Virus record (IMG/VR): IMGVR_UViG_3300044624_000193
Span: 1 to 27,196 of that record
DNA length: 27,196 nt
Source of the DNA: a virus
Strand: one strand, 5' to 3'
Shown in pieces: positions 1,543 through 25,586 of the stretch. A program made the translations under genes and the position numbers. A model generated the notes under the pieces. It was given only the letters and a program-made list of their open reading frames with translations, ran no database searches and was not told the DNA's origin. Within the stretch, counting starts at the first letter, position 1. Each line of letters opens with the position of its first letter.

Positions 1543-1983
1543 ATGGGTAATTGGGCACAAGGCTTCTTTCAACCAAAAAATCCTCAGAAATATGTAGGTA
1601 AACATAAGCCGAGATATCGTTCTGGTTGGGAACTTACCTTTATGACGTTCTGTGATACTAACAGAAACGTACTCTATTGGGCTAGTGAGTCAATGGCTAT
1701 CCCTTATCGTCACCCTATTACGGGTAAACCTGCTAATTATATCCCTGATTTTTTCGTAATGTATGAAAATAAGTTTGGCAAAAAGTTGGCAGAAGTAGTT
1801 GAAATCAAACCCAAAAAACAAAGTTTAATTGAAAGCAAAGCAGCCAATGCTAAAGATCGTATGGTTGTTGCTATTAATCATGCCAAGTGGGCAGCCGCAA
1901 TGGCCTATTGTAAAAGTCAAGGATTTTCTTTTAGAGTAATCACAGAAGATGATTTGTTTTACAATGGAAGAAAAAGAAAATAA
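1543..1983 (+). CDS. 4: Head completion protein gp4, PD-(D/E)XK nuclease-like
   Basis: In T4, gp4 acts late in head maturation, after DNA packaging, before tail joining. This 146-residue protein matches the family's usual length (about 150) and pattern: KYVGKHKPRYRSGWELTFM at residues 16-34, then W46-A-S-E49, Y66-I-P-D69-F, and V85-V-E87-I-K89-P-K-K. The spacing of E30, E49, D69, E87 and K89 fits a PD-(D/E)XK nuclease core, so the acidic and lysine residues expected for catalysis appear intact. The C-terminus contains FSFRVITEDDLF, also typical of gp4. The start ATG at 1543 follows the preceding stop by one base, and the gene sits inside a head/baseplate cluster. Confidence in the family is high; nuclease activity is inferred. 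Confidence 0.88.
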   Translation: MGNWAQGFFQPKNPQKYVGKHKPRYRSGWELTFMTFCDTNRNVLYWASESMAIPYRHPITGKPANYIPDFFVMYENKFGKKLAEVVEIKPKKQSLIESKAANAKDRMVVAINHAKWAAAMAYCKSQGFSFRVITEDDLFYNGRKRK

Positions 1984-15859: not shown

Positions 15860-15888
15860 TTGACAGTATGTATCAATGGTGTTACAAT
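15860..15888 (+). promoter_or_regulatory. Sigma70-type promoter TTGACA-N17-TACAAT
   Basis: A perfect -35 hexamer, a 17-base spacer and a 5/6 -10 hexamer end 6 bases before the ATG at 15895. The expected transcription start falls on or next to that ATG. This is a host-polymerase-type promoter, unlike the surrounding late boxes. Confidence 0.8.
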
Positions 15889-15894
15889 AGTAAC

Positions 15895-16401
15895 ATGAAT
15901 AAAGATATATACGGGCAACATGTTTTCACAGAGAGGGATCTTTTCGATCTTTATCTAACCAACCCCGAATTATCACTTAAAAACACACTAGTTGTAGACA
16001 CGATTAAGTTTGACCCAGAACTTAACATTGAACAAATTCCCCAATTAATTGAATATACGTTAAGCGAAAAAACTATCGAACAGTTTGATGAAGATTGTCG
16101 TAGTCGTTGGTTTATTCCCAAAGAATATAATGATTTTGATATTGCCCAATTTGTATTGGCTCAGTGTAAAACAGATGCGGAACTTCAACGTGCAGGAGAA
16201 GAACTTCTACTATATCAAGAACGTGATATGTTTATATTATTGAAATATTTGAAGTATCTAGTAGACACACTTCGGACAAATAACATCGTTTGGGGTGTTG
16301 GTCGAGGTTCAAGTGTTGCTAGTTTTGTTTTGTATTTGATCGGTATCCATAGAATAAATAGTTTATACTATGATTTACCAATCACTGAGTTCTTAAAATA
16401 G
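15895..16401 (+). CDS. DnaE-like GRGS-motif fragment (Pol III alpha-related)
   Basis: This 168-residue protein has a C-terminal third that aligns by eye with the bacterial DNA polymerase III alpha subunit just before the catalytic aspartates. ERDMFILLKYLKYLVDTLR, then WGVGRGSSVASFVLYLIG (133-150) and INSLYYDLPITEFLK match the DnaE pattern GPGRGS-x-x-S-L-V-A-Y, D-P-L-x-x-D-L-L-F-E-R-F-L-N. The protein stops where DnaE continues into the PDFDVDF catalytic segment. It also lacks a PHP domain, fingers and beta-clamp tail, so it cannot be a polymerase alone. I chose ATG 15895 because the promoter ends at 15888; an upstream in-frame ATG at 15868 lies inside that promoter. Possible roles are a nucleotide-binding or regulatory module. 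Homology is fairly sure; function is unknown. Confidence 0.68.
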   Translation: MNKDIYGQHVFTERDLFDLYLTNPELSLKNTLVVDTIKFDPELNIEQIPQLIEYTLSEKTIEQFDEDCRSRWFIPKEYNDFDIAQFVLAQCKTDAELQRAGEELLLYQERDMFILLKYLKYLVDTLRTNNIVWGVGRGSSVASFVLYLIGIHRINSLYYDLPITEFLK

Positions 16402-16846: not shown

Positions 16847-17203
16847 ATGGCATCTATCAATAAAGTAAAAGTAAACAAACTTATACCACTACACGATACT
16901 ATCATTGTATCCGATATGGAATTCACTGAACGTATCAGTAATGGTGGTATTATCATTCTTAATGACGATATGAAAAGCGCAGGCATTCGCCCACGTTGGG
17001 GGAAGGTCTATGCAATAGGACCAAAGGTAAAAGACATTGAAGTAGGACAATATATTATGATAGCACACGGTCGCTGGACACGTGGTATCACTATTGATAC
17101 TCCTGAAGGCGAGAAAGTAATCCGTAAAGTTGATAACCAAGATATTTTATTAGTCAGTGAAGACAAACCACAAGACGAAACAATGAGTGACAAGGTATAT
17201 TAA
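16847..17203 (+). CDS. 31: GroES/gp31-like co-chaperonin
   Basis: This 118-residue protein has GroES topology. PLHDTIIVSDMEF begins the barrel, ERISNGGIIILNDD contains the hydrophobic mobile-loop tripeptide followed by the next strand, and WGKVYAIGPKVKDIEVGQYI corresponds to the GroES region G-x-V-x-A-V-G followed by V-x-V-G-D. NQDILLVSED matches the final strand. The length is close to T4 gp31 (111) and longer than GroES (97), mainly through a C-terminal acidic tail. In T4, gp31 replaces GroES on host GroEL and enlarges the cage so that the major capsid protein can fold; the same role is likely here. Mobile-loop specificity cannot be judged without structure comparison. Confidence 0.85.
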   Translation: MASINKVKVNKLIPLHDTIIVSDMEFTERISNGGIIILNDDMKSAGIRPRWGKVYAIGPKVKDIEVGQYIMIAHGRWTRGITIDTPEGEKVIRKVDNQDILLVSEDKPQDETMSDKVY

Positions 17204-17251: not shown

Positions 17252-17932
17252 ATGTTTAATACGCACGTTTATAGGTCAGCATCAGAAGTTAACAGTTCTA
17301 TGCTACGAGTTTACAATCATATGACTCTAGCAGTTATTGTTAGTATGTTGGTCAGTTATTTTGTAGGCAGTTCACCTGAACTATTAGCCTTTTTCTTTAC
17401 GGGCATTATGAAATGGATCACTATCTTTGCTCCACTGGTAGCAGTATTTGCAATTTCATATGTTCTCAATGACAACCGATCAGTAGGTTCTGCACAGTTA
17501 ATGTTACATGGCTTTGCTACATTAATGGGCTTGAGTTTTTCTGTTATCTTTGCTGTATATCAAATGGGTAGTATTGTATCAGCGTTTATGGGAGCGGCAA
17601 TCTTATTTGGAGTTATGAGTTTTTATGGATATTTCACGAAGAAAAATCTCGATAGTATTGGTAAGTTTATGTTTGTTGGGCTTATTGCTATCATCATTGC
17701 CAGTATTATTAATATTTTTATTGGTAGTAGTGTGGCTTCTATGGTCATAAGTGCATTAGCAATCATTATCTTTTTGGGTCTAACTGCTTACGATACCCAA
17801 AAGATTCGTGAAGAACTTAGCGTTTCGGGTAATAATGATGTTGCGGAAGTCCGAGGGGCATTGACATTGTACCTAGATTTCATTAATATGTTTATTAATC
17901 TACTATCACTATTCGGAATAAAGAAGGATTAA
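17252..17932 (+). CDS. Bax inhibitor-1/YccA-like integral membrane protein
   Basis: This 226-residue, very hydrophobic protein has about seven predicted membrane segments (roughly 24-38, 47-71, 86-104, 107-127, 138-156, 160-179, 205-222). Family hallmarks are present: GLTAYDTQKI at 176-185 and ALTLYLDFINMFINLLSLFG at 203-222, matching the BI-1/TMBIM signatures. D181 and D209 correspond to the aspartate pair that forms the pH-sensitive latch in bacterial BsYetJ. In E. coli, family member YccA is a substrate and inhibitor of the membrane protease FtsH; others conduct calcium. AAAGG precedes the ATG. A gene for a single-span membrane protein follows after 4 bases. FtsH modulation or membrane-leak control during infection is inference. 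Family assignment is strong. Confidence 0.88.
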   Translation: MFNTHVYRSASEVNSSMLRVYNHMTLAVIVSMLVSYFVGSSPELLAFFFTGIMKWITIFAPLVAVFAISYVLNDNRSVGSAQLMLHGFATLMGLSFSVIFAVYQMGSIVSAFMGAAILFGVMSFYGYFTKKNLDSIGKFMFVGLIAIIIASIINIFIGSSVASMVISALAIIIFLGLTAYDTQKIREELSVSGNNDVAEVRGALTLYLDFINMFINLLSLFGIKKD

Positions 17933-22482: not shown

Positions 22483-23283
22483 ATGGATCATTATAGCACA
22501 CTGGGAATTCCACGTACGGCTTCTCCCGAAGAAATCAAAAAAGCATATCGCAAACTTGCGATGGAACATCATCCTGATCGTGGAGGTGATAATGTTAAAT
22601 TCCAAGAACTTAGTATAGCGTATAACACGTTAAGCGACCCAGATAAGAAGGCTGCTTACGATAATCCACAGGCTCAATTCGGTGGTTTCAACTTTGGCCC
22701 AAATGGTTTTGACTTTCAAGATATCTTTAAAGCATTCAATCAACAACAGACTAATCCATTTGAAGCATATGTCCGTCAACAGAATCAACAGCAACAAATG
22801 TATCGTACAAGAGTTACAGTATCATTAGTTGATGCATATAATGGAACCGAACAAGTATTAAAATTGAATACTCCTCAAGGTCTAAAAGTAGTCAATCTTA
22901 AATTGCCTCGAGGTGTAAAAACCGGAGACAATATGCGTTATGATAACGTAGTTAACGGAGCAATGTTACTGATTGAATTCGTAGTATTATCTGACTTACG
23001 TTTTGATAGAAGGGACGATGACTTGTATGCTAATTTACCTATATCAGTATTAGATTTAATTGTTGGAACAACTATTCAATTTACTACTATAGGTAAGAAA
23101 ACACTTGAAGTTACAATTAAGCCGGGAACGCAACCATATATGCAACTAAAGATTCCAGGAGAAGGTATGCCTTCCCGAAACGGTGGAGTAGGTGACCAAA
23201 TACTCTTGCTAAAACCCTTCATACCTGATAATATAGATACTGATATAATAGAAAGTATCAAGCGAGCCTATCAAAATAAATAG
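22483..23283 (+). CDS. DnaJ/CbpA-like J-domain co-chaperone
   Basis: This 266-residue Hsp40 has a J-domain at residues 1-63 (DHYSTLGIPRTASPEEIKKA, with H30-P31-D32 intact), the residue triad that stimulates DnaK ATPase. A short Gly/Phe and Gln-rich linker follows (GGFNFGPNGF, then QQNQQQQM). The C-terminal substrate-binding domains (108-250) contain VTVSLVDAYNGTEQVLKL and IKIPGEGMP-like LKIPGEGMPSRNGG. The zinc-finger cysteines of DnaJ are absent, so it is a class B (CbpA-type) protein. It could direct host DnaK toward phage proteins or feed clients to the ClpA-like unfoldase encoded next, whose promoter overlaps this stop. The start is chosen by the promoter geometry and the intact J-domain. 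Confidence 0.93.
   Translation: MDHYSTLGIPRTASPEEIKKAYRKLAMEHHPDRGGDNVKFQELSIAYNTLSDPDKKAAYDNPQAQFGGFNFGPNGFDFQDIFKAFNQQQTNPFEAYVRQQNQQQQMYRTRVTVSLVDAYNGTEQVLKLNTPQGLKVVNLKLPRGVKTGDNMRYDNVVNGAMLLIEFVVLSDLRFDRRDDDLYANLPISVLDLIVGTTIQFTTIGKKTLEVTIKPGTQPYMQLKIPGEGMPSRNGGVGDQILLLKPFIPDNIDTDIIESIKRAYQNK
23275..23282 (+). promoter_or_regulatory. T4-late-type promoter box AATAAATA
   Basis: AATAAATAGTATTA overlaps the dnaJ-like stop codon. The 21-base gap to the TTG at 23304 holds the Shine-Dalgarno AAAGGA. This box allows late expression of the unfoldase separate from the J-domain gene. Confidence 0.6.
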
Positions 23284-23303: not shown

Positions 23304-25586
23304 TTGCAACAATCACCAGAAATTGAAAACATTATTGAACGTGCTATTGAAGCCGCAAAGGGACGCCAACATGAATATGTTACAGTAGAACATTTGCTAC
23401 TGTCTCTTATCTCACATCCTCCCTTCAAGAAATGTTTGAATCAATTCAACGTTGATACAGATTTAATGATTTCGGAAGTAGAAGCATATCTTAATGGATT
23501 ACATGCTATCGAATCAAAAGAACCCGGCATTCAGCCAAAGCGTACCAATACACTTGAGCGTGTTATGAATCGTTCAGTAACACAAGTATTGTTTACTGGT
23601 CGTAGGCAAGTTACTACAGTTGACTTGTATCTTTCTATTGCTAGTGAAGGTAACTCACATGCACATTACTTTCTATTAAAGTACGGCGTCACTAAAGGTG
23701 ATTTTGTTAATCACTGGCAGAAGGTATATAAGGGAAGTGATTTCACCGCTAATCTAACTGATAATCAAGCAGATGAAATTCTTGAAGAATATACGATTAA
23801 TCTTACACAAATGGCCCGTGAAGATAAACTAGAACCGGTCATTGGTCGCAGTAAAGAAATCGATGACATTATCAATGTCCTCGCAAAGCGTTTCAAGTCA
23901 AACGTATTAATGGTCGGTGACCCAGGGGTTGGTAAAACTGCAATCGCAGAAGGTATTGCTAACGCTATTGTTGCGGGAGAAGTTCCTGAGTTCTTAGAAG
24001 GATATGAACTATTCTCACTTGAGATTGGTTCATTACTAGCAGGATCTAAGTATCGTGGCGACTTTGAAGAAAAGGTAAAGGCTGTACTTGATGCTCTAAC
24101 CATTAAGAAGAAGGCTATTCTTTTCATTGACGAAGCACATACTATGCAAGGTGCGGGTGCATCCAGCAATGGTTCACTAGACTTTGCAAATATGATTAAG
24201 CCTGCAATTACTAAAGGCACATTAAAAGTTATTGCAAGCACAACATGGGAAGAGTTCTACGAAAGTTTTGAAAAGGATCGTGCATTGATGCGCCGATTCT
24301 ATAAGGTAACTATTGATGAACCTTCAACTGAATCTACGATTCGTATTTTGTCAGGACTATCAACTCGCCTCAACGACTTCCACAATGTAAAGATCACGGA
24401 CGAAGCAATCGAAGCCGCAGTAGAAAGTTCAGCACGTTATATTCACGACCGCAAGAATCCTGATAAGTCAATTGACTTACTTGATGCGGCTTGTGCAAAG
24501 CAACGTGTTTTAGGTAATGAAGAAGCAATCATTACTAAGCAATTGATTCACGAACAGGTTGAAAAGTTTACAGGCGTCCCTGCTGATAAGTTGTCAGGAG
24601 ACAACATGGATCGTATTCAGAACCTTGAAATTAATGTTAAGAGTAAGTTGTATGGTCAAGATGCGACCGTAGAACAAGTTCTTGAGCGTGTGTATGTTTC
24701 GTTCGCTGGCATTGGCAACGACACTAAGCCGATTGCAAGTTTCTTGTTCTTGGGCCCAACGGGTACAGGTAAAACAGAACTGGCGAAATTGCTGTCCAAG
24801 AATTTGGATATGCCGCTTCTCAAGTATGACATGTCGGAGTACAGCGAGAAGCACAGTGTAAGCAGTTTGATTGGCCCGCCCCCTGGCTACGTAGGCTTTG
24901 GCGATTCACAAGTACAAGGTGGACGCCTAATTTCAGACTTGAGCAAGAATCCGCACTCAATCTTATTGTTTGACGAAGTTGAAAAGGCTCATCCAGATAT
25001 CTTCAATATTTTCTTGCAGATTCTAGATGAGGGAACTATCACTGGATCAAATGGTAAGCAGGTTTCATGTAAGAATACGCTAATCGTTCTAACATCTAAC
25101 TTGGGTTCAGCGGACAGCGAACGGAACAACATTGGATTTGGTACACAAGAAAAGTCAGGTGAAGATGACAAGGCTCTTAAGCAATTCTTCAAGCCTGAAT
25201 TTAGAAATCGTCTTGATATGGTTTGTAAGTTCAATAAGTTGGACACCCTTTCAATTAAAAAGATTGTTGTCAAGTTCACTGATGACCTTAAGAAGTCATT
25301 ACTAGAAAAGCATAACATCACATTAAACTTTAGTGAACCTGCTATTGAACATCTAGCAGAAGTTGGCTACGATAGTAAAATGGGCGCACGTCCACTTGCA
25401 CGTAAGATTGATGAACTAATTCGTGTACCACTGTCAAAGAAGATTTTGTTTGAACGTGTTTCAAATGCAAATATCATGGCAGTAATGGATGGTGATAAGA
25501 TTGATTTCACTATCTCTAATAAGAAAACAGCGAGAGTAGGTGAAGATGGCATTATCGAAGTTGAAAGTGAACCAGGTAGACCGTGA
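23304..25586 (+). CDS. clpA: ClpA-type AAA+ unfoldase
   Basis: At 760 residues it matches E. coli ClpA (758) and lacks the ClpB middle domain. The N-domain begins PEIENIIERAIEAAKGRQHE, then YVTVEHLLLSLI. D1 has Walker A GDPGVGKT (205-212), pore loop SKYRGDFE (248-255), Walker B LFIDEAH (273-279) and arginine fingers at R330/R331. D2 has Walker A GPTGTGKT (484-491), GYVGF pore loop (528-532), Walker B LLFDEVEKA (554-562), and sensor-2 GARPL (694-698). I610-G611-F612 occupies the position of the ClpA IGL loop and fits the ClpP-binding consensus. TTG is the start, 7 bases after AAAGGA; no nearby ATG exists. It probably unfolds proteins for host ClpP. No phage ClpP is seen here. Confidence 0.92.
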   Translation: MQQSPEIENIIERAIEAAKGRQHEYVTVEHLLLSLISHPPFKKCLNQFNVDTDLMISEVEAYLNGLHAIESKEPGIQPKRTNTLERVMNRSVTQVLFTGRRQVTTVDLYLSIASEGNSHAHYFLLKYGVTKGDFVNHWQKVYKGSDFTANLTDNQADEILEEYTINLTQMAREDKLEPVIGRSKEIDDIINVLAKRFKSNVLMVGDPGVGKTAIAEGIANAIVAGEVPEFLEGYELFSLEIGSLLAGSKYRGDFEEKVKAVLDALTIKKKAILFIDEAHTMQGAGASSNGSLDFANMIKPAITKGTLKVIASTTWEEFYESFEKDRALMRRFYKVTIDEPSTESTIRILSGLSTRLNDFHNVKITDEAIEAAVESSARYIHDRKNPDKSIDLLDAACAKQRVLGNEEAIITKQLIHEQVEKFTGVPADKLSGDNMDRIQNLEINVKSKLYGQDATVEQVLERVYVSFAGIGNDTKPIASFLFLGPTGTGKTELAKLLSKNLDMPLLKYDMSEYSEKHSVSSLIGPPPGYVGFGDSQVQGGRLISDLSKNPHSILLFDEVEKAHPDIFNIFLQILDEGTITGSNGKQVSCKNTLIVLTSNLGSADSERNNIGFGTQEKSGEDDKALKQFFKPEFRNRLDMVCKFNKLDTLSIKKIVVKFTDDLKKSLLEKHNITLNFSEPAIEHLAEVGYDSKMGARPLARKIDELIRVPLSKKILFERVSNANIMAVMDGDKIDFTISNKKTARVGEDGIIEVESEPGRP

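Follow-up and report, generated by a model that had tools for sequence, protein, structure and literature searches.

In the current study, the clpA gene of a 27,196-base fragment of phage DNA (the window) was found to encode an unfoldase that probably belongs to a ClpAP(S) protease encoded by the phage itself, a reading to which we assign a probability of roughly 70%. The unfoldase would dock on ClpP by means of an IGF tripeptide, a phage ClpP being its most likely partner and a phage ClpS its adaptor. The case is built on the identity of the protein and of the loop that bears the tripeptide, on the selective conservation of that tripeptide, and on the co-occurrence of ClpP, ClpS and ClpX in related phages. 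Docking of ClpA on ClpP through IGF is strongly supported by these sequence comparisons, and it is probable that this partner is a phage ClpP.

Concerning the identity of the protein, clpA (23304..25586, plus strand) begins with a TTG codon and specifies a 760 amino acid (aa) ClpA-type Hsp100 unfoldase made up of an N domain, D1, D2 and D2-small, and Pfam matches (Clp_N, AAA, AAA_lid_9, AAA_2 and ClpB_D2-small) extend over its full length. The protein matches phrog_4871 (‘ATP-dependent protease’) with an E value of 1.7e-237, its top NCBIfam model is ClpA (E 1e-235, 784 bits) and its best-matching PDB chain by sequence, as identified using phmmer, is E. coli ClpA. Since 784 bits is below the 993-bit cut-off of the ClpA equivalog TIGR02639, the protein is to be regarded as a ClpA-family phage protein that lies outside the curated bacterial equivalog. 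At the position of the TTG codon, 32 of 80 relatives also have TTG, while 37 have ATG and 10 have GTG, which supports the residue numbering adopted in the first-pass annotation of this DNA.

When aligned with other phage proteins and with E. coli ClpA, the window protein proved to have both AAA+ motif sets intact (GDPGVGKT/FIDEAH and GPTGTGKT/LLFDEVEKAH), as are the pore-loop tyrosines (KYRG and GYVG). All of the mapped motifs lie on the plus strand: the Walker A motif of D1 corresponds to aa 205–212 (23916..23939), while D2 contains its Walker A motif at aa 484–491 (24753..24776), the GYVG pore loop, invariant in a 33-sequence alignment, at aa 528–531 (24885..24896), and the Walker B motif FDEVEKAH at aa 556–563 (24969..24992). 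The middle domain of the ClpB/ClpC type is missing, and this alignment, together with the domain and family matches, the PDB match and the tree described below, upholds the first-pass view of a ClpA-like rather than ClpB-like protein devoid of the ClpB middle domain. ClpB disaggregase resembles the window protein in having an N domain and two AAA+ rings, from which the latter is distinguished by the lack of the middle domain, the presence of the IGF loop and its position on the ClpA side of the tree. The E. coli ClpAP-ClpS system is the closer likeness, as domain order, Walker A and B sets, pore loops, the position of an IGL-type loop and the lack of a middle domain are all shared, at approximately 42% identity between the two ClpA proteins. 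The N-domain acidic residues E23 and E28 of E. coli ClpA, which we take to be ClpS contacts, are kept as E24 and E29. Differences from E. coli are that the window protein has the ClpX form of the tripeptide (IGF) in place of IGL, that four residues are inserted downstream of its D2 pore loop (GFGDSQVQGG), and that its gene adjoins dnaJ and not clpS.

The predicted ClpP-docking tripeptide I610-G611-F612 (25131..25139, plus strand) lies between the D2 Walker B motif and FKPEFRNRLD (aa 629–638) and, as had been claimed from the sequence alone, stands opposite the IGL of E. coli ClpA when compared with PDB chains by phmmer. Hydrophobic clefts on ClpP are the docking sites of IGL and IGF tripeptides, as established by cryo-EM (PMC7707817). 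IGF was present in each of 81 close ClpAs (that of the window and 80 IMG/VR loci of at least 77% identity), although its codons vary among them (ATT, ATC or ATA; GGT, GGA or GGC; TTC or TTT). A second scan, for which the ClpA of Pseudomonas phage Paride was the query, yielded 79 more distant phage ClpAs, all of which have [IVL]GF (76 IGF, two VGF and one LGF). Across 33 aligned ClpAs with 40–83% identity to that of the window, an alignment that excludes loci interrupted by a stop codon within the coordinates used, G611 and F612 are invariant and residue 610 is I, V or L, whereas the other columns of the surrounding 28-residue loop are variable (mean entropy 1.5 bits). Triples of loop columns drawn at random matched the conservation of IGF in 0.056% of draws, and the conservation of the tripeptide thus exceeds chance. 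A conserved loop predicted to dock on ClpP is accordingly present in close and distant ClpAs alike, as the first-pass annotation had proposed for the window protein.

The AlphaFold2 model of the window protein, calculated with no partner included (mean pLDDT 82, pTM 0.54), presents aa 606–620 (25119..25163, plus strand) as a low-confidence coil (pLDDT below 50, without secondary structure) flanked by confident D2 elements. Such a coil is as expected of a flexible docking loop and argues, at the level of a model, against a buried core position; burial of the tripeptide had been named beforehand as the outcome that would speak against docking, and the loop is predicted to be disordered and not core-packed. 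Foldseek matches of the model in the PDB include many ClpAP and ClpC-ClpP complexes.

In a tree of 59 proteins, in which bacterial ClpA was represented by two sequences only (E. coli and Acinetobacter), phage ClpAs of this kind formed one clade (100/99) beside the two bacterial proteins; a 100/100 branch united these two with all phage ClpAs, and the phage clade was placed apart from ClpB and ClpC. Since the phage ClpAs form a single clade, the docking loop appears to have survived a long divergence. No close cellular relative of the window protein was found among the matches listed in a scan of genome contigs, these being mostly ClpC-type proteins of 33–41% identity, and the 3′ half of the window had no DNA-level match in the phage collection. 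A double AAA+ protein encoded in the 735-kb record LR756501.1 (L126), which is also without a middle domain and has QGM where IGF stands, might be taken for a phage ClpA from which the loop has disappeared; this was rejected because the tree groups it with ClpB/ClpC, and the protein consequently serves as an outgroup control only. Neither a ClpP nor a ClpS match was found in LR756501.1. Viral scans with this protein and with the ClpA of phage RaK2 returned only the queries themselves, near-copies or one weak fragment.

Any clpP region of the window phage would lie outside the fragment, and partner genes were surveyed in 20 related records, seven of which exceed 200 kb. ClpP is encoded in all seven of these long records and in three of the 13 shorter ones, and each of the seven also encodes ClpS and a ClpX of approximately 390–410 aa. 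The order clpX-clpS-clpP was observed in 10 of 10 regions read, and coordinates place this cluster some 35–66 kb from dnaJ-clpA in the relatives, whose ClpX proteins also bear IGF. Since the long-contig relatives all possess ClpP, ClpS and an IGF-bearing ClpX, the natural partner of the window ClpA is probably a phage ClpP, and the window phage presumably has a clpP gene of its own.

The ClpPs of the window clade are 60–65% identical to E. coli ClpP, match PF00574 with E values of about 1e-80, retain Y62, F82 and L114, and mostly begin at the position of the mature N terminus of the E. coli protein; the Ser97/His122/Asp171 triad is kept in all aligned phage ClpPs. A function of the window-clade proteins as prohead proteases was set aside on the basis of this identity, the strength of the ClpP match and the mature-type N terminus, while for the proteins of the RaK2 group (33–35% identical) its rejection stands on less firm ground. 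The ClpS proteins of the regions read keep the Asn34-Asp35 and His66 positions, presumably part of the N-degron pocket. Three further observations concern individual records. ClpP matches were absent from a 270-kb record (G028) and from two records of 188–195 kb (G029 and G026), all of which have an IGF-type ClpA; either host ClpP would have to serve in these phages or the records are incomplete. A record of 524,565 bases (G010) contains two copies each of clpA, clpX, clpS and clpP, possibly because two genomes were joined in assembly. Near the clpP of one related phage, a tandem-repeat protein with units like GPAVEYADGTRYWYLNGQRHRED is encoded (L084, 774..1352, minus strand).

Isolated jumbo phages of the ClpA clade present a similar picture, as a ClpP-family gene was found in all eight (E values of 1e-61 to 1e-81 for Phosso, Atu_ph07 and Paride, and of 1e-41 to 1e-46 for RaK2, PBECO4, GAP32, CBB and Vibrio 2.275), and all eight also gave ClpS matches. 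The ClpA tripeptide is IGF in the first three of these phages and IGV, IGM or LGM in the other five. In the aligned ClpPs of four RaK2-group phages the cleft is changed (L114 to G or T, with F82 also changed) while the catalytic triad is kept. From these sequences, a joint change of tripeptide and ClpP cleft in the RaK2 group is suggestive, and no stronger, since it rests on one divergent group and has one exception, Paride, in which an IGF ClpA occurs together with ClpP L114S.

Agrobacterium phage Atu_ph07 and Sinorhizobium phage Phosso (phrog_4871) resemble the window phage in having dnaJ upstream of clpA, an IGF tripeptide and their own ClpP and ClpS, although in Phosso a peptide deformylase gene lies between dnaJ and clpA, and their ClpAs are 38–40% identical to that of the window. 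The PA5oct-like phage Paride shares with the window the arrangement of PhoH (on the minus strand), two structural genes, a small gene and clpA, as well as IGF and a ClpP of its own, but it has no dnaJ there, its ClpA is 40% identical and its ClpP is annotated as a ‘head maturation protease’. The same label is attached to ClpP homologues in NC_042013, NC_071039, OR805295 and others, and on some phage ClpPs it probably hides the other half of a ClpA-ClpP machine.

According to the reading that we prefer, a ClpA hexamer would bind a ClpP tetradecamer, usually the phage’s own, through the IGF loop on the D2 ring, and would unfold substrates and thread them through to the ClpP chamber, where they would be degraded. 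Phage ClpS would bring some of the substrates to the ClpA N domain, and DnaJ may hand over misfolded proteins either to ClpA or to the DnaK of the host. The putative substrates are host or defence proteins, or else the machine may provide protein quality control during infection. The arrangement of the genes stands against this reading, as clpA lies beside dnaJ and structural genes, in an operon separate from that of clpP. The three IGF-bearing records that lack a ClpP match and the NCBIfam score under the equivalog cut-off also weigh against it.

It is also conceivable, although in our estimation unlikely, that host ClpP is the main docking partner of phage ClpA, which would thereby redirect host proteolysis during infection. 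The IGF loop would suit the general ClpP cleft, ClpP is present in most bacteria, as judged from control genomes, and IGF-type ClpAs occur in long records in which no clpP was found, such as the 270-kb record. The complete set of ClpP, ClpS and ClpX in every long record of the window clade, the ClpP-family gene of every isolated phage of the ClpA clade, and the joint shift of tripeptide and cleft in the RaK2 group all point away from it. The first-pass suggestion that the enzyme could capture the host peptidase is hence borne out as regards docking on ClpP, whereas host ClpP is probably not the main route, given that all seven long relatives possess a ClpP. Capture of host ClpP may nonetheless occur, and those few ClpA phages in which no clpP was found would depend on it.

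Less probable still is that ClpA acts independently of ClpP, as a chaperone or disaggregase which cooperates with host DnaK and the DnaJ encoded beside it in virion assembly or refolding. The dnaJ gene (22483..23283, plus strand) encodes a 266-aa J-domain co-chaperone with an HPD motif (Pfam DnaJ, E 6e-22; DnaJ_C, E 4e-23) and is located directly upstream of clpA in all 77 relatives with room for it; clpA also adjoins structural genes, and a GroES-like gene is close by. This explanation is nevertheless difficult to reconcile with the missing middle domain, the module through which ClpB contacts DnaK, with the co-occurrence of ClpP and ClpS, and with IGF itself, which a disaggregase would not need and which is yet kept throughout the clade with synonymous change; the QGM-bearing protein of LR756501.1, for its part, sits in a record without ClpP or ClpS. 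That IGF is a passive and functionless leftover of a bacterial ClpA ancestor may be dismissed almost entirely. The bacterial ClpAs compared have the tripeptide, and descent alone accounts for its first presence; yet in a clade of approximately 40% identity, in which loop neighbours and codons vary, none of 33 diverse ClpAs departs from the G or the F.

At the level of annotation, phage ClpA, ClpP and ClpS are already known. The annotation of Atu_ph07 lists ClpA, ClpP, ClpS, ClpX and DnaJ (PMC6102473), ClpA is a core gene of the aquatic ‘moraphages’ (PMC12619734), and a survey of jumbo phages mentioned ClpP and ClpS separately, proposing that ClpS serves host ClpAP and suggesting that ClpA is a translocase or assembly aid (PMC7824862). 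Among the open-access papers searched, none was found in which a phage ClpA-ClpP pair was tested or spelled out, nor any functional study of the ClpAs of Atu_ph07 and Phosso. In contrast to the separate roles envisaged in that survey, a ClpP loop so strictly kept, in phages that also encode ClpP and ClpS, is suggestive of a single phage protease. As a tentative extension, which we consider somewhat doubtful, large phages may maintain a private, virus-lineage ClpA-ClpP-ClpS system, with ClpX acting on the same ClpP, whose ClpA would stem from one old acquisition and co-evolve with ClpP at the docking cleft, and which would permit N-degron-type removal of chosen host or defence proteins independently of host ClpP.

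Further genes of the window are of note in their own right. The GroES/Cpn10-like protein of 118 aa (16847..17203, plus strand; PF00166, E 6e-6) is encoded in 58 of 60 relatives, and its gene, dnaJ and clpA constitute a chaperone-rich region. A 226-aa membrane protein of the Bax inhibitor-1/YccA family (17252..17932, plus strand; PF01027, E 1.7e-53) is encoded in 11 of 60 relatives with room for it; E. coli YccA is a modulator of the FtsH protease, and the phage gene may be another proteostasis gene. A 177-aa DNA-polymerase-like protein (15868..16401, plus strand; phrog_11127), kept in 57 of 59 relatives, may represent one fragment of a split polymerase, while a 146-aa protein encoded among the tail genes (1543..1983, plus strand) has a TnsA-like endonuclease domain at its N terminus (PF08722, E 3e-19).
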